NCBI RefSeq assembly: GCF_036864975.1
Contig: NZ_CP104311.1
Coordinates: 1,342,001 to 1,406,000, forward strand
Direction of reading: 5' to 3'
DNA from: Methylococcus capsulatus
GTDB taxonomy: Bacteria > Pseudomonadota > Gammaproteobacteria > Methylococcales > Methylococcaceae
Length of the DNA: 64,000 nt
In this document: piece by piece, positions 4,107-48,914 of the stretch
Position numbering within the stretch: the stretch's first letter is position 1
Layout of the letters: every line of letters starts with the position of its first letter
Notes under the pieces: model-generated
Databases searched by the model: none
What the model saw: the letters and a program-made list of their open reading frames with translations, nothing else
Told to the model about the DNA's origin: nothing
Made by a program: the position numbers and the translations under genes

Positions 4107-5726
4107 ATGAGCCCTGTCTCCGCGTTTCGCCCGCCCACCGCTGACAGCTTCGGGTACCGGAAAAATTCTATTCAAGCGATCGTTTCCTGCCTGGTTCTGG
4201 CCCTGGCCGCCTGTGCTTCCGTCAATGCCGAGAATTCGGTTCCGCAGATGGAACAGGGGATTCAGATCGGGGATCCTGCCCCCGGCAGGGCGGTGATCTG
4301 GAGCCGGGCGGACCGTCCCGCGCGCATGATGGTGGAATACGCTTTCAGCGCCGATTTCGCCGATTCGAAAACCGTTCGCGGTCCCTATGCCCTGGAAGGC
4401 TCCGACTATACCGCCCGCCAGGATCTGACCGGCTTGCCGGCGGGTCGGGACGTCTACGTGAAGGTCTGGTTCGAGGATTTGACCAATGCCCGCAGCCGGA
4501 GCGAGCCTGTGGCGGGGCATTTCCACACCATCGGCAGGCGTGACGACATCCGTTTCGTGTGGGGCGGCGACACCGCCGGTCAGGGCTGGGGCATCAACCC
4601 CGCTTTCGGCGGGATGAAGATCTACGAGACCATGCGCCAGGTGAAGCCGCAGTTCTTCATCCACAGCGGGGACACCGTCTATTCCGACGGCATCATCAAG
4701 CCTGAGGTCACGGCAGAAAACGGCCAGGTATGGACCAACATCGTCACGCCGGAAGTCGCGAAAGTCGCAGAGACGCTGGATGAATTCCGCGGCCGCTATA
4801 AATACAATCTGCTCGATGACAACCTCCGCCGGTTCAATGCCGAGGTTCCGCAGATCTGGCAATGGGACGACCATGAGGTCGTCAACAACTGGTCCGACGC
4901 CAAGGATCTGAGCGCCGATCCCCGCTATATGGTCAAAGACGTTCCGCTTCTGGTGGCACGGGCCTCGGAGGCGTTCCACGAGTATGCGCCGATGCGTCCG
5001 TATTCAGTGGAGGAGTCCGACCGGATTTATCGACAGCTCTCCTACGGTCCCCTGCTCGATGTCTTCGTCCTCGACATGCGCAATTACCGGGGGCCCAATA
5101 CCTATAACCTGCAGAACCAGGAAGGGCCCGAGACGGCATTCCTGGGAGATGCCCAGCTGCAATGGCTGGAGCAGGGGTTGAAGAATTCGAAGGCGACATG
5201 GAAAGTCATCGCGGCCGACATGCCGATCGGATTGAACATTGCAGACGGCACCGACGCCCAGGGCCGCGCCCGATGGGAGGCAATCGCCAACGGCAACGAC
5301 GGCCCCCCTGCCGGGCGTGAGTTGGAAATCGCACGTCTGCTCGGATTCATCAAAAAGCAGCGCATCAAGAACATCGTGTGGCTGACCGCCGACGTCCATT
5401 ACGCTGCGGCGCACTATTACGATCCGGCACATGCCGCCAGCAAGGATTTCGCCCCTTTCTGGGAATTCGTCGCCGGTCCGCTCAACGCCGGCACCTTCGG
5501 CCCCAACAGCACCGACGGCACTTTCGGTCCCCAAGTAGTGTTCTCCAAGGCTCCTCCGGCAGGGCAGGTCAACCTGTCTCCCTATGCCGGCCTGCAGTTC
5601 TTCGGCGAGGTCAACATCAACCGGGTGGATCAGAGCCTCACGGTGGATCTCAAGGACCTCGACGGTGTGTCGATCTTCAGCAAGACCCTGCGTCCGGAGC
5701 CGGTCTTCACTTTCGGCGGCAGGTAG
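4107..5726 (+). CDS. PhoD-like alkaline phosphatase/phosphodiesterase
   Basis: Exported metallophosphoesterase of 539 residues. The metal-binding blocks of the PhoD family appear in order: GGDTAGQ, HSGDTVYSDG, WDDHEVVNN and TADVHYA. The N-terminus has a basic, then hydrophobic segment (IVSCLVLALAAC) ending in a lipobox-like LAAC, so it is either a lipoprotein or a Tat/Sec-exported enzyme; a clear twin-arginine motif is absent. I chose ATG 4107 because GAGGAG lies seven bases upstream; a TTG at 4077 is in frame but has no ribosome site. The enzyme would release phosphate from phosphomonoesters or diesters in the periplasm. It stands alone between the nif groups. Confidence 0.85.
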   Translation: MSPVSAFRPPTADSFGYRKNSIQAIVSCLVLALAACASVNAENSVPQMEQGIQIGDPAPGRAVIWSRADRPARMMVEYAFSADFADSKTVRGPYALEGSDYTARQDLTGLPAGRDVYVKVWFEDLTNARSRSEPVAGHFHTIGRRDDIRFVWGGDTAGQGWGINPAFGGMKIYETMRQVKPQFFIHSGDTVYSDGIIKPEVTAENGQVWTNIVTPEVAKVAETLDEFRGRYKYNLLDDNLRRFNAEVPQIWQWDDHEVVNNWSDAKDLSADPRYMVKDVPLLVARASEAFHEYAPMRPYSVEESDRIYRQLSYGPLLDVFVLDMRNYRGPNTYNLQNQEGPETAFLGDAQLQWLEQGLKNSKATWKVIAADMPIGLNIADGTDAQGRARWEAIANGNDGPPAGRELEIARLLGFIKKQRIKNIVWLTADVHYAAAHYYDPAHAASKDFAPFWEFVAGPLNAGTFGPNSTDGTFGPQVVFSKAPPAGQVNLSPYAGLQFFGEVNINRVDQSLTVDLKDLDGVSIFSKTLRPEPVFTFGGR

Positions 5727-5773
5727 CGGTCCCTGTCACTTCGGACTGGGCGGTGGAACTCGCACCAGGGCGA

Positions 5774-7363
5774 TCAGGCCCGGTTTCGGGGGTAGGGTGC
5801 CTCGGTCGTGATCCGCGGGTCGTCCAGCGGTTGGCCCACGGTGAAGTGGTACAGCGACTGGAACGCCTTCCCGGACAGCCCCAGCAGTTCGTGGAAGGCG
5901 TCGTCGAAGTAGCAGCCGATGCCGGTACCACGCAGACGCCGGGCTTCGGCTTCCAGATAGAGTACTTGGCCCAGGAGTCCCGCTTGCCAGTGAAGCTGGC
6001 GATAACGCCAAGGAGCGATGCTCAGGATGTCTTCGAATTCCGCCAGCATCCCCAGCGCGAAAGCGCTGTCGGCGGCTATGGCCTGGTGGCAGGCAATGGT
6101 GCGCGCCAGCGGGACGCAGCTGCCTTCAGCCAACAGGAACAGCGGCAGGTGTGGCGGACAGTCAGAGGGTTTGGTCCAGGCGAAATCCGGCCGCAAAACA
6201 GCGCGTAGCTTGGTTTCGGCATCCCGGCTGCGCGGAAGGGCATATAGCCCCGGCGCCAGCCCCGTGACCCGATGGACGAACAGGACCGGATGCAGCGCCG
6301 GTGGATGGTTCCAGACGTCCCAGGGAACGCCGGGCCGGACCAGCAGCGCGTCCAGCAGGGCATAGAAATCCGTCCTAGCCAGTTCGAAGCGGCGGTCGAA
6401 GCGCTGGGCGCTGCGGCGCTGACGGATCACCGCAGCGGCGGCAACGGCCGGCAGATCAGCACGAGGCGGATAATCCGTTTCGGGCGGGGGCGGGGTTGTT
6501 TCAAGGGGGCCGCGACTGGCATCGGCGACTTCGTCGATCACGGGCCAGTGGTACATGGGATGCGGGTCGAGGACGTTCGCCTTGCCGGCCCAGTCCAGGT
6601 CGGCGAACACCGGCAGGGCCGGCGGTGCGGCCTGCCCGATGACCACTTCGAGCAGGAGCTCCGCTTCTTCCGCTTCCGCGCCCAAAAAATCGCCCGCGCG
6701 GTCGAGCCCCAGCAACCGGGCGATGGTGTCAGCGTCGGCCGTGTCCACCTGCCGCAAGCCCCACCCCAGGGCGGCAGCGGCATAGCGCAGGGCGCCGATG
6801 GCGTGGCCGGTGTCAAGCTGACAGTAACGGAAACCCCTTTCGCCGTATTTCCATGCCTCCCGCCAGTGGATGGAACTGAGGCCGAGCAGCAGCCTGGACG
6901 GACTGCCTGGGGGGGCGGCAGTAGCCCGTGCCCGGCGCTCGAGCGCATGGTCGCGGCTAAGGTAGTGGTAGATGCCGTCATCCAGTCCTTCGAGGTTCTG
7001 GCATACCACATACCCTTCGGTGGGATGGAGGTTGCCGCTGGATGGATTGCAGCGCAGCGACCAGCGGTCCGGCCCGTATTCCTTCCAGGCGGATAGAGCC
7101 AGGGACAGTTCGAGCAGCAGGCCGACTGAATCCAGCGTCAAGGCGCGAGGCGGGACGGCGTCCGGTCGGTGCAGATCCGGATACGACGTATCGAGACGAT
7201 CCGCCTGCAGGGGAAGCAGGATTCTGTCGGTGCCTTCGAAAGTCCGGAATGGATCGGGCTGGGCGCTCCAGTCCAGGGTCTCGGGTCCCGCCGCGTAGCG
7301 TTCCAGCCGGTGTTTGGTGCGTTCGTGGTAGGCCGGTATGCGCCCAGTATCGGTGTCTCTCAT
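5774..7363 (-). CDS. SagB-type oxidoreductase with two nitroreductase-like halves
   Basis: A 529-residue flavin-dependent dehydrogenase of the SagB/ThcOx (nitroreductase-like) superfamily. The first half shows the family segment NPSSGNLHPTEGYV and the second half has RQRRSAQRFD, the usual start of a nitroreductase domain. Two SagB-like domains are therefore joined in tandem. SagB enzymes oxidise azolines in peptide natural products, but many genomic copies stand apart from such clusters and their substrate is unknown. I chose ATG 7363, which overlaps the TGA of the ArsC-like gene in an ATGA arrangement; the longer frame to 7633 is a shadow. It is the last gene of the six-gene run that diverges from nifH. 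Confidence 0.8.
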   Translation of the reverse strand: MRDTDTGRIPAYHERTKHRLERYAAGPETLDWSAQPDPFRTFEGTDRILLPLQADRLDTSYPDLHRPDAVPPRALTLDSVGLLLELSLALSAWKEYGPDRWSLRCNPSSGNLHPTEGYVVCQNLEGLDDGIYHYLSRDHALERRARATAAPPGSPSRLLLGLSSIHWREAWKYGERGFRYCQLDTGHAIGALRYAAAALGWGLRQVDTADADTIARLLGLDRAGDFLGAEAEEAELLLEVVIGQAAPPALPVFADLDWAGKANVLDPHPMYHWPVIDEVADASRGPLETTPPPPETDYPPRADLPAVAAAAVIRQRRSAQRFDRRFELARTDFYALLDALLVRPGVPWDVWNHPPALHPVLFVHRVTGLAPGLYALPRSRDAETKLRAVLRPDFAWTKPSDCPPHLPLFLLAEGSCVPLARTIACHQAIAADSAFALGMLAEFEDILSIAPWRYRQLHWQAGLLGQVLYLEAEARRLRGTGIGCYFDDAFHELLGLSGKAFQSLYHFTVGQPLDDPRITTEAPYPRNRA

Positions 7364-7797
7364 TCGTCGGCGGAATCCTCGAGTGGAGGGCAGGGATGAG
7401 GCCGGCGGCAGCTTTCCGGATCGGCATCGGCCGTTTGCCGGTTGCTGCCGAGCCCGATCCAGACTCGGACCGATTCCGGATCGAAGCCGGCCTCCCGCCG
7501 CTCCCCGACCCGCATGAGCGGACGGCGGATCAGCAGAGGGTCTGACAGCATCAAGGCGATCGCCTCCTCCGCGTCCATGGATTCGGGGACGACTTCCCCC
7601 GATTTGATGCGAGGGGCTGCGCGGTTGAACCACTCGGCCACCGGGCGGTCGCCGAAAAACTGCCGCAATTCGCCGGCACGCCAGGGCGTCGCCAGGAGGT
7701 CGTGGACGATCAGCTCATGCCCGGCCTTCCGCAGCATCTGCTTCTGGCGTGCATTGTTGGCGCAGCCGGGTTTTTCGTAGAAGTGGACGAGAGCCAC
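7360..7797 (-). CDS. ArsC/Spx-like nitrogenase-associated protein
   Basis: A 145-residue thioredoxin-fold protein starting at GTG 7797. The N-terminal strand HFYEKPGCANN places a single Cys (Cys12) where ArsC and Spx carry theirs. It matches the nitrogenase-associated branch of the ArsC family, which sits in many nif clusters. The mid-region LIRRPLM resembles the ArsC signature LIxRPI. The last 20 residues (including RPHPCPPLED) are encoded by a copy of a dispersed CCTCAtCCC-type repeat, so the C-terminus was probably extended by repeat insertion. It overlaps the SagB-type gene by four bases and lies seven bases after the Cys-rich gene. Its role in nitrogen fixation is not defined. Confidence 0.8.
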   Translation of the reverse strand: MALVHFYEKPGCANNARQKQMLRKAGHELIVHDLLATPWRAGELRQFFGDRPVAEWFNRAAPRIKSGEVVPESMDAEEAIALMLSDPLLIRRPLMRVGERREAGFDPESVRVWIGLGSNRQTADADPESCRRPHPCPPLEDSADE

Positions 7798-7804
7798 TGT
7801 GGTG

Positions 7805-8056
7805 TCAGCTCGCCCAGACTTGGTACGGACGGTAATCGCCAGGGGAGACGGCCTCGGCCTGGCCGATCGCGCCGCATTTGAGGCAGTGTTCCAGCACGTT
7901 GAAAGCCTGGTCCGAACAGAGATCGTCACGCGACTGCTTGCAGCCGGTGGCGCCGCAGACCTTGCAGGTATACAGGGTACCGTTACAGGGTTCACCGCTG
8001 CTTTTGCGCGTGCCTTGACACAATTTAAGAGCCGATTTGATCACTTGGTAGGTCAT
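7805..8056 (-). CDS. small eight-cysteine protein, nif-linked
   Basis: An 83-residue protein with eight cysteines (13, 24, 31, 34, 39, 47, 58, 61), including two CxxC pairs (CKVC and CLKC). The pattern suggests two zinc or Fe-S sites. It starts with ATG behind GGGGGAA and is 7 bases ahead of the ArsC-like gene. I do not recognise a named family. Its place between a Rieske protein and a thioredoxin-fold protein suggests redox or metal handling for nitrogenase; that is inference. Confidence 0.75.
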   Translation of the reverse strand: MTYQVIKSALKLCQGTRKSSGEPCNGTLYTCKVCGATGCKQSRDDLCSDQAFNVLEHCLKCGAIGQAEAVSPGDYRPYQVWAS

Positions 8057-8107
8057 GGTTCCCCCTTGTGGTTGTGGTCTATGTGCGAAAATCGTGCTTG
8101 CCTTCGT

Positions 8108-8434
8108 CTAACTCAAATAATTGGGTAAAACCCCTTCGGTCTCGATCAGGACTTCGCCGTTTTCGATCTTCAACGGATATTCGGCCAGGGTGCAGCGCTT
8201 GCCCTTAATGCAGGCGCCGTCGCTGTCGAACTCCCAATCATGGTGCGCACAGGTTAGGGTCCTGCCGTCGAAGCGGGCATCCGCCAGCGGCTCCCGGGCA
8301 TGGGGGCACATCCCCTGGAAGGCGCGAGGCCGGGACCCGGTCGGCCATACCACCAGCATCAGGGTGCGATTGACCGCGACAACCTCGTATTTGCCTTCTT
8401 TCAGTTCGCTTTCATCACAGGCTTTGGTGAACAT
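8108..8434 (-). CDS. Rieske [2Fe-2S] ferredoxin
   Basis: A 108-residue soluble Rieske protein. The ligands are Cys43 and His45 (MCPHAR) and Cys62 and His65 (TCAHHD), the CxH...CxxH pattern, in the short form seen in Rieske ferredoxins of dioxygenase or nitrite-reductase-small-subunit type. There is no membrane anchor or signal peptide. It probably transfers single electrons in the cytoplasm. It is the third gene of the run diverging from nifH, 51 bases ahead of the Cys-rich gene. Confidence 0.9.
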   Translation of the reverse strand: MFTKACDESELKEGKYEVVAVNRTLMLVVWPTGSRPRAFQGMCPHAREPLADARFDGRTLTCAHHDWEFDSDGACIKGKRCTLAEYPLKIENGEVLIETEGVLPNYLS

Positions 8435-8488
8435 GGCTGACCTTTGCCGGGGAGGGAGACGCCGCCGCGCGGCGTCCCGTTTTAAGGT

Positions 8489-9076
8489 TCACACCGGACG
8501 GTTATCCGGGATCCGGATCGGGCCCATAATCTTCAGGCCCTCTTCGAAACTGATCACATCGAACTTCTCGTCGAAGTTTGCTGCGGCATCCGCGATGGCG
8601 ACCAGCTTGCCGGCGGTGTCGAGCTTCTTCAGGTCGTTCTTTTCGATGCGGAACAGCTCCAGCAGTTCGTTGTATACGGTCGCCTCATCCAGTGGCAGCA
8701 CCCAGAAACTGGCGCCGCGATGGGTGATCTGGTAGCGCTTGGAAATGTCCAGGTTGCCGGCGAAGAAGAAATACTTGCCGGCAGGCGACAGCTTGTCCCC
8801 CAGCACGTCCATGAGCAGGTCGAGATGTTCCAGCGACAGCGCAACGCCAGCCAGGAAGGGAAGGGTGGATTCGCCGGCTTTTGCCACCGTCATCACCTGA
8901 TCGAATTTGATTTCGGGCGGGCGAGCCTCATCGCTCACTTGCTGGGCGAACTTCAGGGCGATCATTCCGCGGAAGCCGAAGACACCCGGCTGGGCGGTGG
9001 CGCCTTTGAAGACCGGGCTCAACAACCGGTTTTCGTTTTCCAGGGACGCGAGGGGAGTTTCGCTAATAGTGGTCAT
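8489..9076 (-). CDS. hypothetical protein of the divergent nif operon
   Basis: A 195-residue protein with no cysteines, no signal peptide and no obvious membrane span. It contains a hydrophobic mid-region (FLAGVALSLEHLDLLMDVL). I do not recognise the family. It has an ATG start with a GGAGCG ribosome site and is 54 bases ahead of the Rieske gene and 93 bases after the receiver-like gene, consistent with one transcript. By context it belongs with nitrogen fixation. Confidence 0.75.
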   Translation of the reverse strand: MTTISETPLASLENENRLLSPVFKGATAQPGVFGFRGMIALKFAQQVSDEARPPEIKFDQVMTVAKAGESTLPFLAGVALSLEHLDLLMDVLGDKLSPAGKYFFFAGNLDISKRYQITHRGASFWVLPLDEATVYNELLELFRIEKNDLKKLDTAGKLVAIADAAANFDEKFDVISFEEGLKIMGPIRIPDNRPV

Positions 9077-9169
9077 GACGCTCCTTAATGTTGGTCTACG
9101 GTGAAATCGACTTCATTGCATTAAACTACGCGTGGCGGCCCGAACCGCCCGGTTTTTCGGCCGAAGCAC

Positions 9170-9595
9170 TCAGGTGACGACGACCGGGACGGCGAGCTTG
9201 ACCTTGCGGCCCAGTTGCATATCCACCTTCTGGCGGGCTTTTTCGATCGTAAGGGGTTTCGTCAGCAGGGAGTTCGCCCCCAATTTGAGGCATTCCTGCG
9301 CCAAGGGATCGGTGGCAGCATCGGCCACCACGATAATCTTGATGTCTTCCATCTGCGCACGGATTTCTTCCAGTACGCCGATGCCCCGGCTCCTGACCAC
9401 GCCCAGACCCAGCAGCAATACCGCCGGTTTCCAGTCCGCCGCTTTGGCATAGGCGGCCTCGAGGCTGCTTAGTTCATGGGTCTCGATTTCGTCGTGCAGC
9501 ATGAACTGCAAGGCGGCACGGGTGATTTCATCGTCGTCGACGACGAAGACCCGCCTGTCGTCCACCGCTCTTTCAGTATCGACGCCTATTTGCAT
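9170..9595 (-). CDS. receiver-domain protein lacking the phospho-acceptor Asp
   Basis: A 141-residue single CheY-like receiver domain. The acidic pocket (VFVVDDDE, Asp20-Asp21) and the conserved Lys (LLTKPLT, Lys113) are present. The phospho-acceptor position in the beta3 strand is Gly63 (AVLLLGLGV, where the family has LLLDL), encoded by GGT, and the conserved Thr/Ser of beta4 is Ala91. It is therefore a pseudo-receiver that cannot be phosphorylated in the usual way. No output domain follows. It is the first gene of the six-gene run and has its own sigma-54 promoter facing away from nifH. A scaffolding or protein-binding role is inference. Confidence 0.85.
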   Translation of the reverse strand: MQIGVDTERAVDDRRVFVVDDDEITRAALQFMLHDEIETHELSSLEAAYAKAADWKPAVLLLGLGVVRSRGIGVLEEIRAQMEDIKIIVVADAATDPLAQECLKLGANSLLTKPLTIEKARQKVDMQLGRKVKLAVPVVVT

Positions 9596-9720
9596 GGGCT
9601 TCTCCTAAGGTTTTTAGGTTTTCCAGTCCGGTTGAGTCGGCTGCGTCTTCCAAGGTCCCTAGGAACTCCACCGAAGCCGTCGATGCCCCGATGGATTATG
9701 GAGACCTTCTTCCAAAATCT

Positions 9721-9736
9721 AGCAATCGATGTGCCG
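9721..9736 (-). promoter_or_regulatory. sigma-54 (-24/-12) promoter for the divergent operon
   Basis: On the minus strand these bases read CGGCAC-ATCGA-TTGCT, matching the sigma-54 consensus TGGCAC-N5-TTGCA/T with one change. The GG and GC cores are exactly 10 bases apart. It would start a transcript about 110 bases ahead of the receiver-like gene at 9595. Confidence 0.8.
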
Positions 9737-9816
9737 TTCTCTGCCCGGTTTTCCGGTGGCCGGTTTTTTCAAAGGTTTGAGCTTGGCAGCGGGAGATCCG
9801 TAGTGCCCAGGCAACT

Positions 9817-9832
9817 TGTGCCGTTCCCTACA
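9817..9832. promoter_or_regulatory. NifA upstream activator site (TGT-N10-ACA), copy 1
   Basis: TGTGCCGTTCCCTACA is an exact match to the NifA binding pattern. Its centre is about 90 bases from the -24 element of the minus-strand promoter and about 120 bases from that of nifH. The related bases TGTGCCGTTCTCT at 9730-9742 lack the ACA half. Confidence 0.85.
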
Positions 9833-9845
9833 AACAGTGAGGTTT

Positions 9846-9861
9846 TGTAGCGTTGTGAACA
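9846..9861. promoter_or_regulatory. NifA upstream activator site (TGT-N10-ACA), copy 2
   Basis: TGTAGCGTTGTGAACA is a second exact TGT-N10-ACA match, 29 bases centre to centre from copy 1. It lies about 91 bases upstream of the nifH -24 element, the usual range for NifA sites. Confidence 0.85.
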
Positions 9862-9910
9862 TCCCCCGAACGCCCGACTGGCGTCCAGCCATGGGGCGTG
9901 TCTACTGGAA

Positions 9911-9923
9911 TTTCAAGCCGTTA
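9911..9923 (+). promoter_or_regulatory. candidate IHF site between NifA sites and nifH promoter
   Basis: TTTCAAGCCGTTA fits the IHF consensus WATCAAN4TTR with one mismatch and lies between the activator sites and the -24 element, where IHF normally bends nif promoters. A weaker candidate with two mismatches is on the other strand at 9770-9782, on the side of the divergent promoter. Confidence 0.5.
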
Positions 9924-9942
9924 GGTGTGGCATACGAAAGGG

Positions 9943-9958
9943 TGGCACACCGGTTGCT
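9943..9958 (+). promoter_or_regulatory. sigma-54 (-24/-12) promoter of nifHDK
   Basis: TGGCAC-ACCGG-TTGCT is a perfect -24/-12 element with 10 bases between GG and GC. It would give an untranslated leader of about 150 bases before nifH. The stretch 9596-10117 holds no gene; it contains only this promoter, its divergent twin and the activator sites. Confidence 0.92.
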
Positions 9959-10099
9959 TCGGAGATAAGCGTGCAGTGTTCACTGCCGTAAAAGTGGCGG
10001 CGACAAGAATAAGAAAAAGAAAGCGCCTTCCTCATACGGCGGGTCGGAAGTTCCAACATCGGCTGAATGCTGCTGGCCATGAAGCATCGATCATCCTGA

Positions 10100-10999
<900 letters not shown>

Positions 11000-11096: not shown

Positions 11097-12557
11097 ATGA
11101 GCCTCACAGTTGAGCAAGTCAAACAGAGAAACAAGGACCTCATCAAAGAGGTGCTTGAGGTTTATCCCGACAAGACGGCCAAGCGCCGCGCCAAGCACCT
11201 TGGCACCTTCGAAGAAGGCAAGCCCGACTGCGGGGTCAAATCCAACATCAAGTCGATCCCCGGCGTCATGACCATCCGCGGCTGCGCCTACGCAGGTTCC
11301 AAGGGGGTGGTCTGGGGTCCCATCAAGGACATGATCCACATCAGCCACGGTCCCGTCGGCTGCGGCCAGTATTCCTGGGCGTCGCGCCGCAACTACTACA
11401 TCGGCACCACCGGCATCGACACTTTCGTCACCATGCAGTTCACCTCCGATTTCCAGGAGAAGGACATCGTCTTCGGTGGTGACAAGAAGCTGGAAAAGAT
11501 CATCGACGAAATCGAAGAGCTGTTCCCGCTGAACCACGGCATCACCGTCCAGTCCGAGTGCCCGATCGGCCTCATCGGCGACGACATCGAGGCCGTATCC
11601 AAGAAGAAGTCCAAGGAATACAACGGCAAAACCATCGTGCCGGTGCGCTGCGAAGGCTTCCGCGGCGTCTCGCAATCGCTGGGCCATCACATCGCCAACG
11701 ATGCGGTGCGTGACTGGGTGTTCGACAAGGCGGGCGACAAGCATCCCGAGTTCCAGTCCACGCCGTATGACGTCGCCATCATCGGCGACTACAACATCGG
11801 CGGCGACGCCTGGTCTTCCCGCATCCTGCTGGAAGAAATGGGGCTGCGCGTAATCGCCCAGTGGTCCGGTGACGGCACCCTGGCCGAGCTGGAAAACACG
11901 CCGAAGGCCAAGCTGAACGTGCTGCACTGCTACCGTTCGATGAACTACATCTCCCGCCACCTGGAAGAGAAGTACGGTGTGCCGTGGGTGGAGTACAACT
12001 TCTTCGGTCCCACCAAGATCGCTGAGTCGCTGCGCAAGATCGCCAGCTTCTTCGACGACAAGATCAAGGAAGGTGCGGAGCGTGTCATCGCCAAGTACCA
12101 GCCGCTGATGGATGCGGTGATCGCGAAGTACCGTCCGCGTCTGGAAGGCAAGAAGGTCATGCTGTTCGTAGGGGGCTTGCGTCCGCGTCACGTGATCGGT
12201 GCCTACGAGGACCTGGGGATGGAAATCGTCGGTACCGGCTACGAGTTCGGCCACAACGACGACTACCAGCGTACCACGCACTACGTCAAGGACGGCACGC
12301 TGATCTATGACGACGTGACGGGCTATGAGTTCGAGAAGTTCGTCGAAGCCATCCAGCCCGACCTGGTCGGTTCCGGCATCAAGGAAAAGTACGTGTTCCA
12401 GAAGATGGGCGTACCGTTCCGGCAGATGCATTCCTGGGACTATTCCGGCCCCTACCACGGTTATGACGGCTTCGCCATTTTCGCCAGGGATATGGACATG
12501 GCCATCAATAACCCGGTCTGGGGTTTGACCAAGGCCCCGTGGAAGAGCGCGGCTTAA
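11097..12557 (+). CDS. nifD: nitrogenase MoFe protein alpha chain
   Basis: A 486-residue alpha subunit of molybdenum nitrogenase. P-cluster ligands are Cys63 (RGCAYAG), Cys89 (PVGCGQ) and Cys155 (SECPIG). FeMo-cofactor ligands are Cys278 (VLHCYRS) and His445 (RQMHSWDYS). The substrate-pocket segment GVSQSLGHH (residues 190-198) is intact. These positions track the Azotobacter numbering with an offset of one to three, so it is the Mo type rather than AnfD or VnfD. It starts with ATG behind TCAGGAGC, 97 bases after nifH. Confidence 0.98.
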
Positions 12558-12668: not shown

Positions 12669-14228
12669 ATGAGTCAGAATGCAGAGAAGGTTCTCGATCA
12701 TTTCAACCTATTCCGCGAGCCGGAGTATACGAATCTGTTCGAGAACAAGAGGAAAGAGTTCGAATTCATGCCCCCCGACGCTCAGGTCGAGGAGGTTCGC
12801 GAATGGGCCAAGACCGAGGAGTACAAGGAAAAGAACTTTGCCCGTGAAGCGCTGGTCGTCAATCCCGCCAAAGCCTGCCAGCCGCTAGGCGCCGTCTTCG
12901 CGGCCGTCGGTTTCGAAGGCACCATTCCCTTCGTCCATGGCTCTCAGGGTTGTGTGGCTTACTACCGCTCGCACTTCAGCCGCCACTTCAAGGAACCGAC
13001 TTCCTGCGTGTCTTCGTCGATGACGGAAGACGCGGCGGTGTTCGGCGGCCTGAACAACATGATCGACGGTCTGGCCAACACCTACAACATGTACAAGCCG
13101 AAGATGATCGCCGTGTCCACCACCTGCATGGCGGAAGTGATCGGCGACGACTTGAACGCCTTCATCAAGACATCGAAGGAGAAAGGCAGCATTCCGGCCG
13201 AGTTCGATGTTCCGTTCGCCCATACCCCGGCCTTCGTCGGCAGCCACATCACCGGCTACGACAACGTCATGAAAGGTATCCTGCAGCACTTCTGGGACGG
13301 CAAGGCCGGTACCGTCGAGCCGCTGGTGCGCCAGCCCAACGAGTCGATTAACTTCCTCGGCGGTTTCGACGGCTATACCGTGGGCAACCTGCGCGAGATC
13401 AAGCGCATCTTCAATCTGTTCGGCATCGACTACACCATCATCGGCGATAACAGCGACGTGTGGGATACCCCCACTGACGGCGAGTTCCGCATGTACGATG
13501 GCGGTACCACCCTGGAGCAGGCGGCCAACGCGCTGCACGCCAAGGCAACCATCTCCATGCAAGAGTTCTGCACGGAGAAGACCCTTCCGTTCATCGCTGA
13601 GCATGGCCAGGAGGTCGTTGCCCTGAATCATCCGATCGGCGTGAAGGGGACCGATAGGTTCCTGATGGAAATCTCGCGCCTGACCGGCAAACCGATTCCG
13701 GCGGAACTGGAGAAGGAGCGGGGCCGTCTAGTGGATGCCATCGCCGACTCCACCGCTCACATCCACGGCCAGAAATTCGCCATCTACGGCGATCCCGATC
13801 TGTGCTACGGTCTGGCGGAATTCCTGCTGGAACTGGGTGCGGAGCCGACCCATGTCCTCGCTACCAACGGCAGCAAGGCCTGGGAAACCAAAATGCAGGC
13901 ACTGTTCGATTCCTCGCCGTTCGGCAAGAACTGCAAAGTTTATCCGGGCAAGGATCTGTGGCACATGCGCTCGCTCCTGTTCACCGAGCCTGTCGACTTC
14001 CTGATCGGCAACACCTACGGCAAGTACCTGGAGCGTGATACCGGAACGCCGCTGATCCGCATCGGCTTCCCGATCTTCGATCGCCACCATAAACACCGTT
14101 ATCCGGTGTGGGGCTATCAAGGCGGCCTGAATGTACTGGTCTGGATCCTTGATCGCATGTTCGAGGCGATCGACGCCAACACCAACATTCCCGCCAAAAC
14201 CGACTACAGCTTCGACATCATTCGCTGA
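12669..14228 (+). CDS. nifK: nitrogenase MoFe protein beta chain
   Basis: A 519-residue beta subunit that shares the P cluster with NifD. Ligands are Cys70 (AKACQPLG), Cys95 ([12 protein letters not shown]) and Cys153 ([12 protein letters not shown]), the same numbers as in Azotobacter. The N-terminal extension and the C-terminal FDIIR are typical of the full-length form. ATG lies behind TTTAGGAG. It is 111 bases from nifD, separated by a REP-like inverted repeat. nifE and nifN do not follow; instead a FeSII gene is next. Confidence 0.98.
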
Positions 14229-42368: not shown

Positions 42369-42572
42369 ATGGCAGAGCCTGATGGCGACATCCTGACCTT
42401 GGACGAGGTTGCGGCCTATCTGAAGGCGGGCAAGCGCACGGTCTACCGGCTCGCCGCGAGCGGGGAAATCCCGGCGTTCAAGCTCGGCGGGACGTGGCGG
42501 TTCCGGCGCTCTGAGCTGGATCGGTGGATCGCCGCCAGTATCAACGAGACAAAACCCAAGGGAAGGAAATGA
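42369..42572 (+). CDS. helix-turn-helix (excisionase/MerR-like) DNA-binding protein
   Basis: A 67-residue protein with the family pattern LTLDEVAAYLKAGKRTVYRL, then IPAFKLGGTWRFRRSELDRWI, a winged helix of the excisionase (HTH_17) type. It is the first gene of the defence operon, and its stop overlaps the start of the helicase gene (ATGA). It may regulate the operon or act with its enzymes at DNA; such proteins often precede restriction systems. Confidence 0.85.
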   Translation: MAEPDGDILTLDEVAAYLKAGKRTVYRLAASGEIPAFKLGGTWRFRRSELDRWIAASINETKPKGRK

Positions 42573-45463
42573 CGCAACCGCTCCTGACGCCACACCAAAG
42601 CCAGTACGTCGCATGGCTGCTCACCCGCCGCGCGGCGGCCGACACCGTCGAGTCGCTGGCCTCGACGCTTGTCGATTCGCAAGTCGATCTCAACCCGCAT
42701 CAGGTCGATGCCGCCCTCTTCGCCTGCCGCAACCCTCTTTCTCGCGGCGTCATCCTCGCCGACGAAGTGGGGCTCGGCAAGACCATCGAGGCAGGCTTGG
42801 TCATTTCACAACGCTGGGCAGAGCGGCGGCGCAAGATTCTCATCATCGTCCCGGCCAACCTGCGCAAACAGTGGCATCAGGAACTCCAGGACAAGTTCAG
42901 CCTGCAAGGGTTGATCCTCGAAGCGAAGAACTACAACGCCATCCGCAAACAGGAGCGTCAGAACCCATTCCTGATGGCCTCCGGGCCGATCATCTGCTCC
43001 TACCAGTTCGCCAAGGCCAAAGCCAAGGACATCAAAGAAATCGCGTGGGACTTGGTCGTCCTCGACGAAGCGCACCGCCTGCGCAACGTCTACAAGACCA
43101 GCAATGTCATCGCCAAGACGCTGAAGGAGGCGATGGGGCACGTCCATTCCAAGGTGCTGCTCACGGCCACCCCCTTGCAGAACTCGCTGCTGGAACTCTA
43201 CGGCCTCGTCAGCATCATCGACGACCGCGTCTTCGGCGACCTCGACAGCTTCCGCGCGCAGTTCACCGCCAATGGCCGCGATCAAGCGTTCAGCGCGTTG
43301 CGCGAACGGCTGTCAGCCGTCTGCAAACGCACGCTGCGCAAGCAGGTGCAGCCCTATGTCTCGTACACGGCGCGCAAGGCCATCGTGCAGGAGTTCACTC
43401 CGTCGACCGAGGAACAGGAACTCTCGCGTCTCGTCGCCGAGTACTTGCGCCGCCCCAACCTCCAGGCGCTGCCGCAGAGCCAGCGGCAACTGATTTCGCT
43501 CGTCCTGTGGAAACTGCTGGCGTCCAGCACGCACGCCATCGCGGGCGCGCTGGAAACGATGGCCAAACGCTTGCAAGGTGTGCTCGATGCCTCACCCGTG
43601 GTCGATCTGACCGAAGAACTGGATGAGGACTACGAATCGCTGGACGAAACCGCCGAGGAGTTCGTCGAGGGCGATGACGACACGCCGCCAGATGCCGCCG
43701 GGCCGAGCAAGGAAGAACGCGCCGCCATCACGAGCGAGATCGACGAGCTGCGCCACTTCAAGACGCTGGCCACGAGCATCCGAGAAAACGCCAAGGGCAA
43801 GGCCCTGCTCACGGCTCTGGACAAGGCCTTCGCCGAGCTGGATCGGTTGGGCGCAGCCAAGAAGGCCATCATCTTCACCGAATCCAGACGCACGCAGGAT
43901 TACCTCATGAGCCTGCTGGCCGACACGCCCTACGGTGACGGCATCGTCCTCTTCAATGGCACCAACAGCGACGCCCGTGCGCAGGCCATTTACAAGGACT
44001 GGCTCCAACGCCACGAGGGAACCGACCGCATCACGGGCTCCAAGACCGCAGACACCCGCGCCGCACTGGTCGAACATTTCAGGGAACGCGCAACGGTGAT
44101 GATCGCTACCGAAGCGGGCGCAGAAGGCATCAACCTGCAATTTTGCTCACTGGTCATCAACTACGACCTGCCCTGGAACCCGCAGCGCATCGAACAGCGC
44201 ATCGGGCGCTGCCACCGCTACGGCCAGAAGCACGACGTGGTGGTGGTGAATTTCGTCGATTTGTCCAACGAAGCAGACAAGCGCGTCTATGAGTTGTTGT
44301 CACAGAAGTTCCAGCTTTTCGAGGGCGTCTTCGGTGCCAGCGACGAGGTGTTGGGCGCCATCGGCTCCGGTGTCGATTTCGAGCGTCGGATTGCGGAGAT
44401 TTATCAAAACTGCCGCGAGCCCGAAGAGATCAAAGCCAGCTTCGAGCAGCTCCAGCTCGATCTGTCGAGCGAAATCAACGAGGCGATGGTCAAGACACGG
44501 CAGCTGCTGCTGGAAAACTTCGACGAAGAAGTGCAGGACAAGCTCCGCATCCGCGCCGAAGACAGCCGCAGTGCACGTAATCGCTTCGAACGCATGCTGA
44601 TGAATCTGACTCGCGCCGAACTGGGTGACTGCGCCGACTTCGACGACGACGGATTCAATCTAAGACGCGCGCCGGATGGCATTGAGGCCAGCGGACTCTC
44701 GGGCATAGCGCTGGGCCGCTACGAACTGCCGCGCCGTTCCGGCGAGGCTCACCTGTACCGCATCCACCATCCGCTGGCGCAGTGGGTCTTGCAGCAGGCC
44801 AAGTCGCGAAAGCTCGATGAGGCAAAACTCGTCTTCGACTATGACGAGCATGGCACCAAGGTCAGCACCCTGGAGCCCTACCGCGGCAAAGCCGGGTGGC
44901 TCACCTGCAAGCTGCTCATCGTCGAAGCCTTGGGCAATCAGGAACAGCATCTTCTGGTCGCAGCCACCACCACTGACGGTGTGACATTGGCAGAAGACGA
45001 TCCGGAGAAGCTGCTGCGCCTGCCTGCCAGCACACGAGCGGCGGGTCTGTTCCACCAAGTGGGCAACGCCTCGTTGTCGGCAGACGTCGAGAACCGAAAA
45101 AGCAAACTGTTGCGGGAGATCAATCAACGCAACCTCGGCTACTTCGAGCAGGAAGTGCAGAAGCTGGACGCCTGGGCGGACGACTTGAAGCTCGGGCTGG
45201 AGCAGGAGATCAAAGAGATCGACCGCGAGATCAAGGAGGTGCGCCGCACCGCCGCCACCGCGCCGACGCTGGAAGAAAAGCTGTCCTGGCAAAAGAAGCA
45301 GCGCGAGCTGGAAAGCAAGCGCAGCAAACTGCGCCGGGAGCTGTTTGCCCGGCAGGATGAAGTCGAAGCACAGCGCAACGACCTCATCAGCCAGTTGGAG
45401 GCGCAGCTCCAACAGCAGGTCGAAGAGCGGACGCTGTTCACCATTGAATGGGAACTGAAATAG
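42569..45463 (+). CDS. SNF2/RapA-type helicase of a type III restriction-associated operon
   Basis: A 964-residue superfamily 2 ATPase. Motif I is DEVGLGKTIEAGLVIS (residues about 64-79), motif II is VLDEAHRLRN, motif III LLTATPLQNS, and motif VI RIEQRIGRCHRYGQ. This is the Swi2/Snf2 arrangement with an SNF2-like lower lobe (NYDLPWNPQRIEQ). An acidic insert (EELDEDYESLDETAEE, in part) separates the lobes, and the last ~110 residues form a charged coiled coil. It likely translocates on double-stranded DNA. The start ATG 42569 overlaps the HTH gene. Similar helicases occur in DISARM and other defence loci, but this gene set is not DISARM as defined. Confidence 0.88.
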   Translation: MTQPLLTPHQSQYVAWLLTRRAAADTVESLASTLVDSQVDLNPHQVDAALFACRNPLSRGVILADEVGLGKTIEAGLVISQRWAERRRKILIIVPANLRKQWHQELQDKFSLQGLILEAKNYNAIRKQERQNPFLMASGPIICSYQFAKAKAKDIKEIAWDLVVLDEAHRLRNVYKTSNVIAKTLKEAMGHVHSKVLLTATPLQNSLLELYGLVSIIDDRVFGDLDSFRAQFTANGRDQAFSALRERLSAVCKRTLRKQVQPYVSYTARKAIVQEFTPSTEEQELSRLVAEYLRRPNLQALPQSQRQLISLVLWKLLASSTHAIAGALETMAKRLQGVLDASPVVDLTEELDEDYESLDETAEEFVEGDDDTPPDAAGPSKEERAAITSEIDELRHFKTLATSIRENAKGKALLTALDKAFAELDRLGAAKKAIIFTESRRTQDYLMSLLADTPYGDGIVLFNGTNSDARAQAIYKDWLQRHEGTDRITGSKTADTRAALVEHFRERATVMIATEAGAEGINLQFCSLVINYDLPWNPQRIEQRIGRCHRYGQKHDVVVVNFVDLSNEADKRVYELLSQKFQLFEGVFGASDEVLGAIGSGVDFERRIAEIYQNCREPEEIKASFEQLQLDLSSEINEAMVKTRQLLLENFDEEVQDKLRIRAEDSRSARNRFERMLMNLTRAELGDCADFDDDGFNLRRAPDGIEASGLSGIALGRYELPRRSGEAHLYRIHHPLAQWVLQQAKSRKLDEAKLVFDYDEHGTKVSTLEPYRGKAGWLTCKLLIVEALGNQEQHLLVAATTTDGVTLAEDDPEKLLRLPASTRAAGLFHQVGNASLSADVENRKSKLLREINQRNLGYFEQEVQKLDAWADDLKLGLEQEIKEIDREIKEVRRTAATAPTLEEKLSWQKKQRELESKRSKLRRELFARQDEVEAQRNDLISQLEAQLQQQVEERTLFTIEWELK

Positions 45464-45475
45464 GAAAGTACACAC

Positions 45476-47191
45476 ATGGCCGCCACCAACTTCAGCACCG
45501 CCAACCGCACCTACCGCGAACTGCTCGGCAATGGCCAAACCTATCGCATCCCGCGCTTCCAGCGCGATTACTCCTGGGATGAAGAGCACTGGGAAGATCT
45601 TTGGACCGACCTACTCGGCACGCTCCCCCCCGATGGCGAGCCGGCGCATTACATGGGCTATCTCGTATTGCAGACCGCCGACAACCGGGAATTTGAAGTC
45701 ATCGATGGCCAGCAGCGGCTGACCACCCTGAGCCTTGTCGTGCTCGCCGCCATGCGCCTACTCGGCAAGCTCGTGAGCGAAGGCAAGAACGCCGCAGACA
45801 ATCGAAAACGGCTGGATCAATTGCGTGCCACCTATATTGGCTATCTCGACCCCGTAACCCTGGTGACGCGCAACAAACTCGCGCTCAACCGCAACAACGA
45901 CGCCTACTACCGCGACTATCTGGTCACACTCGCCGAGCACCTGCCACAGCGTGGCTTCCCCGCTTCCACCCACGCCATGCGCAAAGGGTTTGAATGGTTC
46001 GAGCGCCGCTTGCGTGACCACGCCAAGAACGCGCCGGATCAAGGCATGGCGCTGGCGCAGTTCATCGACACCATGAGCGACAAGCTCTTCTTCACCGTCA
46101 TCACCGTGGCCGACGAACTCAACGCCTACAAGGTATTCGAGACACTCAACGCGCGTGGCGTGCGCCTATCAGCCACCGATCTGCTCAAGAATTACCTGTT
46201 CTCCGTGCTCGCGCGCGGCAACGAATCCGCGCACGAACTGGACGAACTCGAACGGCAGTGGGAAAAAATGGTTGGCCGTTTGGGGCAGGAGAGCTTCCCC
46301 GACTTTCTGCGGATGCACTGGAACAGTCGGCAGAGCTTTGCCCGCCAGTCCGAACTGTTCAAAACCATACGCAGCCGCATCCAGAACCGCGAGGCGGTGT
46401 TCAACCTGCTGCGCGAGATGGACGAGGACATCGATGCCTACCTCGCGCTGACCCAGCCCGAAGGCTCGCAATGGCCGCCCGCGTGCAAGCAGAGCGCGAA
46501 GGAACTGCGCATGTTCTCGGTGCGCCAGCCCTATCCCATGCTGATGGCCGCACGGCGCAAGCTCGGGGATGCCGACTTCGAGGCCCTGCTGCGCGCCACC
46601 GTGGTCATCGCTTTTCGCTACAACGTCATCGGCGCGCAGCACACGGGTGAACAGGAGCGCATCTACCATGCCGCCGCCCTGAGGCTGCACAAAGGCGAAG
46701 CGAAGATCCTTGCCGACGTGCTCGAAACCCTGCGCCCGATCTACCGTGGCGATGACGCCTTTTGCACCGACTTCGCCGACAAGAGCATCAAGACCACGCA
46801 AAGCCGCAACGCCAAAATCGTGCGCTACATCCTGTGCAAGCTGGAACGGCAGGCGGGCGGTATCGATTTCGATCCCGAGTCCGCCGCCTACACCATCGAG
46901 CACGTGTTGCCGCAGTCGCCGCAGGGGGGCTGGGAAGCGTTTTCCGACCGGGACCTGGACACCTTCATTTATCGCCTCGGCAACATGGTCATGCTGGAGG
47001 CTGGCAAGAACAAGGACATCGCCAACCAACCCTACGCCGACAAGCGCCCCGTGCTCGCCGCGAGCAGCCTGACACTGACGCGCACGCTAGCCGAAGAAAA
47101 CAGCGACTGGACGCCCGAACGCATCGAGGCGCGCCAGAACGCGCTCGCCAAACTCGCTACCGCCGTCTGGCGCATCGCCCAACTGAGTTGA
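45476..47191 (+). CDS. DUF262/DUF1524 protein (GmrSD-like)
   Basis: A 571-residue protein that joins a DUF262 domain to a DUF1524 domain, the architecture of GmrSD-type type IV restriction enzymes and of SspE. DUF262 shows YRIPRFQRDYSW (residues 23-34) and the nucleotide-hydrolysis motif DGQQR (77-81). DUF1524 shows IEHVLPQ with His476, the HNH-like nuclease histidine, followed by RLGNMVML and N-K-D. It probably couples NTP hydrolysis to cleavage of modified or phage DNA. It lies 12 bases after the helicase gene and 7 bases before mod, so it belongs to the restriction operon, an unusual place for it. Confidence 0.88.
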   Translation: MAATNFSTANRTYRELLGNGQTYRIPRFQRDYSWDEEHWEDLWTDLLGTLPPDGEPAHYMGYLVLQTADNREFEVIDGQQRLTTLSLVVLAAMRLLGKLVSEGKNAADNRKRLDQLRATYIGYLDPVTLVTRNKLALNRNNDAYYRDYLVTLAEHLPQRGFPASTHAMRKGFEWFERRLRDHAKNAPDQGMALAQFIDTMSDKLFFTVITVADELNAYKVFETLNARGVRLSATDLLKNYLFSVLARGNESAHELDELERQWEKMVGRLGQESFPDFLRMHWNSRQSFARQSELFKTIRSRIQNREAVFNLLREMDEDIDAYLALTQPEGSQWPPACKQSAKELRMFSVRQPYPMLMAARRKLGDADFEALLRATVVIAFRYNVIGAQHTGEQERIYHAAALRLHKGEAKILADVLETLRPIYRGDDAFCTDFADKSIKTTQSRNAKIVRYILCKLERQAGGIDFDPESAAYTIEHVLPQSPQGGWEAFSDRDLDTFIYRLGNMVMLEAGKNKDIANQPYADKRPVLAASSLTLTRTLAEENSDWTPERIEARQNALAKLATAVWRIAQLS

Positions 47192-47198
47192 ACCCCGC

Positions 47199-48914
47199 AT
47201 GAGCAAACAAAAACTTGAACTCACCTGGATCGGCAAGGACAAGCGCCCCAAGCTGGAACCGCGCATCCTGCTCGAAGACCCGGAGAAGTCCTACCACGCC
47301 AAGCACCGCGTGACGGAAAACGACATTTTCGATAACCGCTTGATCTTTGGCGACAACCTGCTGGCCTTGAAGGCGCTGGAGGCGGAGTTTGCGGGGAAGG
47401 TGAAATGTGTGTTCATTGACCCGCCCTACAACACCGGCAGCGCCTTCACCCATTACGACGACGGGCTGGAGCACTCTATCTGGCTGGGGTTGATGCGCGA
47501 CCGGCTGGAAATCATCAAGCGGCTGCTCTCGGAGGATGGCTCGTTGTGGATCACGATTGATGACAATGAATGTCATTACCTCAAGGTTTTGTGTGATGAG
47601 ATTTTTGGACGGGTGAATTTTGTTTGCAATGTCGTTTGGCAAAAGAAATACACAATAGCTAATGATGCAAAGTGGCTTTCGGATAATCACGATCATGTCT
47701 TGGTGTATGCCAAAAACAAAATGTTATGGAAGCCAAATAAAATGCGGCGCACAGAAGAAATGAATGCGCGCTATAAGAACCCCGACAACCATCCGAAAGG
47801 CCCATGGAAAGCAACTCCGTTGCACGCCAAGAGCGGATCAGAGCTAAACAGAAAATTTACTTTTACGTTTAAGAATGGGGTTGTGTGGAGTCCACCGCCA
47901 GGAACTTATCCGCGCTTTTCCGAAGAAAGTCTCCGTCGGATGGATGAGAATAATGAAATTTGGTTTGGCAAAGATGGAAAGGCATCACCTTCCCGGAAAA
48001 CATTTCTGTGCGATATAGTGGAAAGCGGCACGCCGAGCCCTACCGTATGGCTCCATACCGACGCTGGGAATAACCACGAAGCTAGAGACGAAGTAAAAGC
48101 ATTCAACCAGGAAAATCCCTTTGATACGCCAAAGCCAGAAAAGTTATTAGGCAGAATAATTCATCTGGCCACCAACCCCGGCGACCTCGTCCTCGACTCC
48201 TTCGCCGGTTCCGGCACGACCGGCGCCGTGGCGCACAAAATGGGCCGGCGCTGGATCATGGTGGAGCTGGGCGAGCACTGCCACACGCACATCATTCCGC
48301 GCCTGAAGAAAGTGATCGACGGTGAGGACCCGGGCGGCATCACCCAGGCCGTGGGCTGGAAAGGCGGCGGCGGTTTTCGCTACTACCGGCTGGCGCCCAC
48401 GCTCATCGTCAACGACCGCTGGGGCAACCCGATCATCAACCCCGAATACAACGCGGCGATGCTGGCGGAAGCCTTGGCCAAGCTGGAGGGCTTCACCTAC
48501 GCGCCGTCCGAGGTGCATTGGTGGCAGCACGGGCACTCCAGCGAGCGCGACTTCATCTACGTCACCACGCAGAACCTCTCCGCCGAGCAGTTGCAGGCGC
48601 TGTCCGACGAGGTGGGCGGGGAGCGCAGCCTGCTCGTCATGTGCAGCGCCTTTCGTGGCGTGACGGCGGCGCAGGCGGCCGAGCGCTGGCCGAATCTGAC
48701 GCTCAAAAAAATCCCCAAGGCCGTGCTGGCCCGCTGCGAATGGGGTCACGACGATTACAGCCTGAACGTGGCCAACCTGCCGATGGCCAAGCCCGATCCG
48801 GTTGAGCCTGCGGCGGCAGTCGAGGCCGCCAGAAAAACCCAGAACAGGAAGGTTACCGCTGCGAGCTTGAATCAGGGCGGTCTCTTCGATCAGCACAACG
48901 GGGAGAACGAATAA
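47199..48914 (+). CDS. mod: type III-like adenine-N6 DNA methyltransferase (Mod)
   Basis: A 571-residue beta-class methyltransferase: catalytic DPPYNTG (Asp74-Gly80) comes first and the AdoMet motif FAGSGTTGAVAHKMG (residues about 335-349) comes after the target-recognition part. This order is that of type III Mod subunits. Bases about 47575-48165, encoding the recognition part, are clearly more AT-rich (TTTTTGGACGGG, AAATACACAATAGC) than either side, which suggests that the recognition domain was swapped in. The C-terminal 200 residues continue with a Mod-specific tail. The TAA overlaps the ATG of res (TAATG). Confidence 0.92.
   Translation: MSKQKLELTWIGKDKRPKLEPRILLEDPEKSYHAKHRVTENDIFDNRLIFGDNLLALKALEAEFAGKVKCVFIDPPYNTGSAFTHYDDGLEHSIWLGLMRDRLEIIKRLLSEDGSLWITIDDNECHYLKVLCDEIFGRVNFVCNVVWQKKYTIANDAKWLSDNHDHVLVYAKNKMLWKPNKMRRTEEMNARYKNPDNHPKGPWKATPLHAKSGSELNRKFTFTFKNGVVWSPPPGTYPRFSEESLRRMDENNEIWFGKDGKASPSRKTFLCDIVESGTPSPTVWLHTDAGNNHEARDEVKAFNQENPFDTPKPEKLLGRIIHLATNPGDLVLDSFAGSGTTGAVAHKMGRRWIMVELGEHCHTHIIPRLKKVIDGEDPGGITQAVGWKGGGGFRYYRLAPTLIVNDRWGNPIINPEYNAAMLAEALAKLEGFTYAPSEVHWWQHGHSSERDFIYVTTQNLSAEQLQALSDEVGGERSLLVMCSAFRGVTAAQAAERWPNLTLKKIPKAVLARCEWGHDDYSLNVANLPMAKPDPVEPAAAVEAARKTQNRKVTAASLNQGGLFDQHNGENE

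Follow-up and report, generated by a model that had tools for sequence, protein, structure and literature searches.

A putative bidirectional NifA/sigma-54 control region with a tandem pair of activator sites between nifHDK and a divergent operon

Introduction

The locus described here, in which nifHDK and a six-gene operon are transcribed away from each other and two sigma-54 promoters flank a single pair of NifA-type sites, is a compact natural construct for asking whether one NifA enhancer serves two promoters. It lies in a 64,000-nt stretch of DNA, called the window below, which corresponds to positions 1342001–1406000 of a 3.43-Mb single-contig genome. Control of this kind would also link the expression of nitrogenase in aerobic methane oxidisers, organisms that have to shield the enzyme from oxygen, with a set of conserved, uncharacterised genes (encoding P195, a pseudo-receiver, and a Cys-rich protein). 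The explanation preferred here, at a probability of roughly 0.8, is a bidirectional NifA/sigma-54 control region with one tandem enhancer between the two promoters.

Promoters and activator sites

The features of the region are collected in Table 1. The operon promoter reads CGGCACATCGATTGCT on the minus strand (9736–9721) and the nifHDK promoter TGGCACACCGGTTGCT on the plus strand (9943–9958). Both are −24/−12 elements with the GG-N10-GC of NifA-activated sigma-54 promoters; the former is imperfect, with C for the T of TGGCAC, and scores 14 against 15 for the nifH promoter. From these positions, the operon transcript would be expected to start near 9709 (minus strand) and the nifHDK transcript near 9970 (plus strand).

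Centred at 9824.5 and 9853.5, the two activator sites are 29 bp apart, with a gap of 13 bp. Their midpoint is 9839, that of the promoters 9839.5, and on either side ~89 bp separate a site centre from the promoter edge. A first-pass annotation of this DNA had described the outward elements and the two exact TGT-N10-ACA sites, midpoints agreeing within a base, and site centres about 90 bases from the nearer promoter; all of this was borne out, the elements by direct reading and pattern search. Upstream TGT-N10-ACA sites are characteristic of NifA-activated promoters, and here there are two, both exact and conserved; with outward sigma-54 promoters on both sides of them, the layout is of the nifJ-nifH kind.

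A scan of 5500–10200 gave no sigma-70-like site, which says little because shuffles yield just 0.9, and seven terminator-like sites against 4.6 in shuffles; the three on the operon's strand lie within genes. A structured nifH leader was considered and rejected, the RNA fold of 9969–10117 being no better than those of shuffles (z −0.17). An A-rich stretch in the same leader, AAGAATAAGAAAAAGAAAG, shows fairly good conservation among ten aligned Methylococcales sequences.

Table 1. Features of the nifH-divergent region (window coordinates)
Feature	Position	Strand	Remarks
SagB-family nitroreductase-type dehydrogenase	5774–7363	−	TIGR03605, 106.4 bits (cut-off 78.4); 4-bp overlap with TIGR01616 gene
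Nitrogenase-associated ArsC-like protein	7360–7797	−	TIGR01616, 185.5 bits (cut-off 109); GTG start
Cys-rich protein, 83 aa	7805–8056	−	no family above cut-off
Rieske-type [2Fe-2S] protein	8108–8434	−	PF00355, 5.5e-17
P195, conserved 195-aa protein without family	8489–9076	−	no Pfam/NCBIfam match up to E 0.1
Receiver-domain protein (pseudo-receiver), 141 aa	9170–9595	−	first gene of operon; Response_reg, 1.8e-15
Sigma-54 (−24/−12) promoter of six-gene operon	9721–9736	−	CGGCAC-N5-TTGCT; direct reading and pattern search
IHF-like site	9767–9779	+	1 mismatch to WATCAANNNNTTR; between UAS2 and operon promoter
NifA-type upstream activator site UAS2, operon-proximal	9817–9832	+	TGTGCCGTTCCCTACA; exact TGT-N10-ACA
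NifA-type upstream activator site UAS1, nifH-proximal	9846–9861	+	TGTAGCGTTGTGAACA; exact TGT-N10-ACA; orientation as UAS2
IHF-like site	9911–9923	+	1 mismatch; between UAS1 and nifH promoter
Sigma-54 (−24/−12) promoter of nifHDK	9943–9958	+	TGGCAC-N5-TTGCT; direct reading and pattern search
nifH	10118–10999	+	TIGR01287, 459.5 bits (cut-off 394.35)
nifD	11097–12557	+	TIGR01282, 888.5 bits (cut-off 653.55)
nifK	12669–14228	+	TIGR01286, 856.1 bits (cut-off 427.3)

Chance expectation

Taken singly, the motifs are near chance level, as they would be if weak motifs had simply happened to fall together upstream of nifH. The window has five TGT-N10-ACA matches where 6.1 are expected, and two of YGGCAC-N5-TTGC against 0.59, a count reached in 12 of 100 shuffles; genome-wide, there are 90 sigma-54-like matches with up to one mismatch, compared to 82 for a reversed control pattern. 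The combined arrangement is not at chance level. Of 20,000 first-order Markov sequences modelled on the 522-bp intergenic region, 63 had at least two TGT-N10-ACA sites, and no sequence carried sigma-54 sites on both strands or the full set of elements. With its 13-bp gap, the one gap searched for genome-wide, the pair of sites occurs once in the genome, the control pattern not at all. A chance origin is also contradicted by the conservation described next, and its probability can be taken as negligible.

Conservation of the intergenic region

P195, whose nearest named relatives in a search of reference genomes are from Methylococcus, was used as the query against these genomes and gave 27 loci. 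In 22 of them nifH lies within the fetched stretch, always transcribed away from P195, and in 16 of these 22 the receiver gene lies between the two. Loci from stretches without nifH (L019, L020, L022, L024, L026) or with its start outside the stretch (L077, L079, L101, L102) were omitted; with the addition of a plasmid of Methylococcus sp. EFPC2 and further genomes, 43 intergenic regions were compared. The site pair, for which spacings of 26–33 bp only were accepted, and outward sigma-54 sites were found in 40 of the 43, a count that still contains near-duplicates and has the window twice; the three regions lacking the pair are L021, L023, and L025. Removal of nine near-duplicates, the redundancy filter being applied to the 40, left 31 loci. 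With the three exceptions this makes 34 non-redundant regions from Methylococcales and other proteobacteria, the window included, and 31 of them show the arrangement. Across the order (251 genomes), nifH matches were found in 132 genomes and a close P195 (E < 1e-100) in 19; in all 19, nifH is at most 1.8 kb from P195 and oppositely transcribed. This conservation is the strongest evidence that the arrangement is real.

In the 31 loci the centre-to-centre spacing of the pair is 28 bp in one, 29 in 21, 30 in eight, and 31 in one. From the nifH −24 element to UAS1 the distance is 86.5–90.5 bp in 26 loci, 99.5 in four, and 76.5 in one, and on the operon side it is 43.5–133.5 bp in 29, with 276.5 and 290.5 bp in the other two. 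Much of the flanking sequence differs between loci (two alignments have a mean column identity of 50% and 48%), and seven loci have additional TGT-N10-ACA sites. In one of the regions without the pair (L025, ~5508–5547), only ~18 bp separate a single NifA-type site from a divergent sigma-54-like site, and the ORF just downstream of the latter resembles, by eye, a truncated haemoglobin.

The search fixed the TGT and ACA of each site and left the AAC core between them free to vary. This core, on the minus strand in the window, is present in the far site (UAS2) in 30 of 31 loci and in the near one (UAS1) in 25, in the same register and direction; a core in the opposite direction was found in neither site of any of the 31. 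Since the cores share one direction, the enhancer is a tandem repeat and not the mirror-image, symmetric one that the first-pass annotation had proposed. Promoters and sites are symmetric to within 1.5 bp in just seven of the 31 non-redundant loci, so the exact symmetry seen in the window is probably incidental, and it was rejected as a functional feature.

Helical phasing of the operon-side distance was also considered. The distances cluster near 88, 99, and 111 bp, and in a first test 29 non-independent values beat all 5,000 uniform draws. With the 13 distinct values and a uniform null, p was 0.006 for an 11-bp period and 0.20 for a 10.5-bp period, and the signal weakened when SIR2-side distances (see below) were pooled (R 0.30 at 11 bp). 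Because the loci share ancestry the pattern is merely suggestive, and it was set aside as evidence.

An IHF site between the activator site and a NifA-activated sigma-54 promoter is usual, though not universal. Sites with up to one mismatch to the IHF consensus WATCAANNNNTTR were counted as IHF-like, and expectations were obtained by Markov resampling of each segment. On the nifH side 17 of 31 loci have such a site (3.1 expected) and 14 have none; on the operon side 11 of 29 have one (1.1 expected) and 18 have none. The genome has one nifA gene above cut-off (659 bits, cut-off 529), one rpoN (481 bits, cut-off 277), and three genes of the HU/IHF family. Given these genes and the recurrence of the arrangement in 31 of 34 regions, it appears well supported by comparison that NifA and sigma-54 activate nifHDK together with the six-gene operon. 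The part of the earlier proposal that places NifA/sigma-54 control between nifHDK and an operon transcribed the other way is thus supported: the region is conserved well beyond the genus, NifA and RpoN are encoded, and IHF-like sites exceed expectation on both flanks.

It could be asked whether the tandem module acts on nifHDK only, the left sigma-54 site being weak or served by another activator such as NtrC. That site is the less perfect of the two, and the distance on the nifH side is steadier than that on the operon side. However, an operon-strand sigma-54 site scoring at least 14 is kept beyond the far activator site in 30 of the 31 loci despite the drifting distance, where 0.73 would be expected from resampled sequence and the opposite strand gives two. 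With IHF-like sites above expectation on the left as well, and an operon whose content is nif-related, action on nifHDK alone seems improbable.

SIR2-like and nifE comparison regions

For comparison, 60 nifH upstream regions were picked for genus spread from the Methylococcales nifH matches. Nearly all are without a close P195 alongside; four genomes also contribute their second nifH copy, and one of the genomes, L134, has the receiver gene and is also among the 31. A site 60–130 bp from the nifH promoter was found in 51 of the 60. A SIR2-like gene is divergent from nifH in 33, and in 32 of these it has its own sigma-54 promoter with a TGT-N10-ACA site 63.5–133.5 bp away, the kinds of element also seen beside the window operon; in 30 of the 32 another site lies in the nifH range. 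Unlike the window, these regions have a variable site spacing, with successive sites 23–1005 bp apart, and a different first gene (a SIR2_2 domain was identified in L136, the one tested). A divergent putative NifA operon is therefore common in the order, with the tight pair belonging to the P195/receiver group. The window itself has a SIR2-like gene (1863–2705; PF13289, 2.2e-21) ~8 kb from nifH, and it is a relative of this gene that neighbours nifH divergently in the 33 control regions.

These regions bear on the possibility of two independent units set back to back, each site driving the nearer promoter only and their close spacing reflecting packing or inheritance. A separate site for each promoter is what the SIR2-like regions have in 32 of 33 cases, so sharing is not required by the mechanism; in L023, one of the exceptions noted above, there are likewise separate sites, 91 bp apart. 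Against this, the pair seen in 31 of 34 regions of the P195/receiver type is always spaced 28–31 bp, and a comparable pair is found where there is no well-placed second promoter. Upstream of nifE, 10 of 18 regions from P195 genomes have a sigma-54 site with TGT-N10-ACA, in all ten as two sites exactly 30 bp apart; no site pair was identified in the other eight nifE regions. Weak opposite-strand sigma-54-like matches (score 13–14) occur in three of the ten, none placed as at nifH, so the pair does not imply two promoters. Its presence at nifE also makes it look like a general NifA enhancer module, a functional tandem unit, and at nifH this module stands between two promoters. Two independent units are somewhat unlikely.

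For the preferred reading, a single tandem enhancer between two promoters, the following sequence of events may be pictured. At low fixed nitrogen and low oxygen, signals taken from NifA biology, NifA would bind the tandem sites (9817–9861), presumably as two dimers, and through DNA looping would contact sigma-54 polymerase at each outward promoter, aided by DNA bending at the IHF-like site on that side. NifHDK and the six-gene nif-accessory operon would then be turned on together. That one module serves both promoters is plausible. A more specific form of the idea is speculative and rather unlikely: that the two promoters use the one enhancer, with its 28–31 bp spacing, alternately, each activation choosing nifHDK or the accessory operon and so fixing their ratio, and that the operon, with its pseudo-receiver and P195, is an unstudied nitrogenase-support module kept beside nifH in Methylococcaceae and several other proteobacterial lineages.

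The divergent operon

The operon is compact: neighbouring genes are separated by 93, 54, 51, and 7 bp, and the last two overlap by 4 bp. It had been called unknown, which holds for its members without a family, but a TIGR01616 "nitrogenase-associated protein" (presumably NifO), a Rieske protein, a SagB-type dehydrogenase, and a receiver-domain protein are recognised, and by these assignments it would be a nif-accessory operon that is unknown only in part.

In the receiver protein the phospho-acceptor Asp, aligned to that of NtrC1, is replaced by Gly, so that it lacks the residue of a phospho-accepting response regulator; Gly or Ser stands at this position in all 18 aligned sequences, the window's included. 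The N-terminal MQIG is invariant in the same 18-sequence alignment. A receiver without the Asp and with an invariant N-terminus may be a phosphorylation-independent adaptor.

Among 18 P195 sequences, one weakly matched DUF7063 (E 0.0071). A P195 profile run against sequences of solved structures gave one weak match, a VP3 chain (E 0.012), which was taken as chance. Many other Methylococcales have a distant relative of P195 (~26–30% identity), and in five controls (L135, L136, L138, L140, and L162) it is divergent from nifH, behind the SIR2-like gene.

The divergent stretches of relatives include a bacterial-globin domain in L003 and L006, an annotated truncated haemoglobin in EFPC2, DraT in L003 and L004, and an ADP-ribosylglycohydrolase in L003. 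Together with the content of the operon itself, these genes point to a role in nitrogenase support, which could take the form of redox supply, oxygen protection, or switch-off.

Related systems

Genes that regulate nitrogenase are transcribed away from nifHDK in Azospirillum, where draTG adjoins nifH. The draT that L003 and L004 have on their divergent side resembles this arrangement; the window operon differs in having no dra gene, the draT of its genome being elsewhere (C1:3091066–3091833). An exact sigma-54 site lies ~2.4 kb upstream of that draT, with other ORFs between (region C1:3091066–3094271), and a TGT-N10-ACA site is 105.5 bp from this sigma-54 site.

In Klebsiella pneumoniae, nifH diverges, as in the window, from a second nif operon with a sigma-54 promoter, and the divergent nifJ and nifH promoters are described as sharing regulatory features (PMC3723869). 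The partner there is nifJ, whereas the window operon has six genes, among them one for a pseudo-receiver and one for a protein without a family; the likeness drawn here is one of layout. Azoarcus sp. BH72 has near nifH (azo0538) a gene, azo0536, with predicted RpoN and NifA sites, described as NifA-regulated (PMC3916325); the resemblance to the window operon drawn here is one of position and regulatory sites.

A literature search on MCA0226–0231 of M. capsulatus Bath gave one paper, PMC517821, the available portion of which describes nifHDKENX and does not mention the divergent side; PMC10623323 matched only in its reference list. Searches of the open-access literature for divergent or shared NifA enhancers and for tandem NifA sites gave no recognised description of the region. 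The general layout is already known in other nitrogen fixers; the strict spacing and some of the controlled genes are little studied.

Genome context

The nif cluster itself is split in this genome. Past 14842 of the window the cluster does not continue into nifE, which lies at C1:611423–612781, ~740 kb from nifHDK, whereas it is 4.3–5.0 kb from nifH in five other genomes of the same genus and nifHDKENX is described as contiguous in M. capsulatus Bath (PMC517821). The distant nifE is, judging from these positions, the result of a rearrangement in which its site pair was kept. Farther along in the window, at 42524–51652, are a helicase, a DUF262-type protein, and type III restriction-modification subunits, as judged by eye from their translations.
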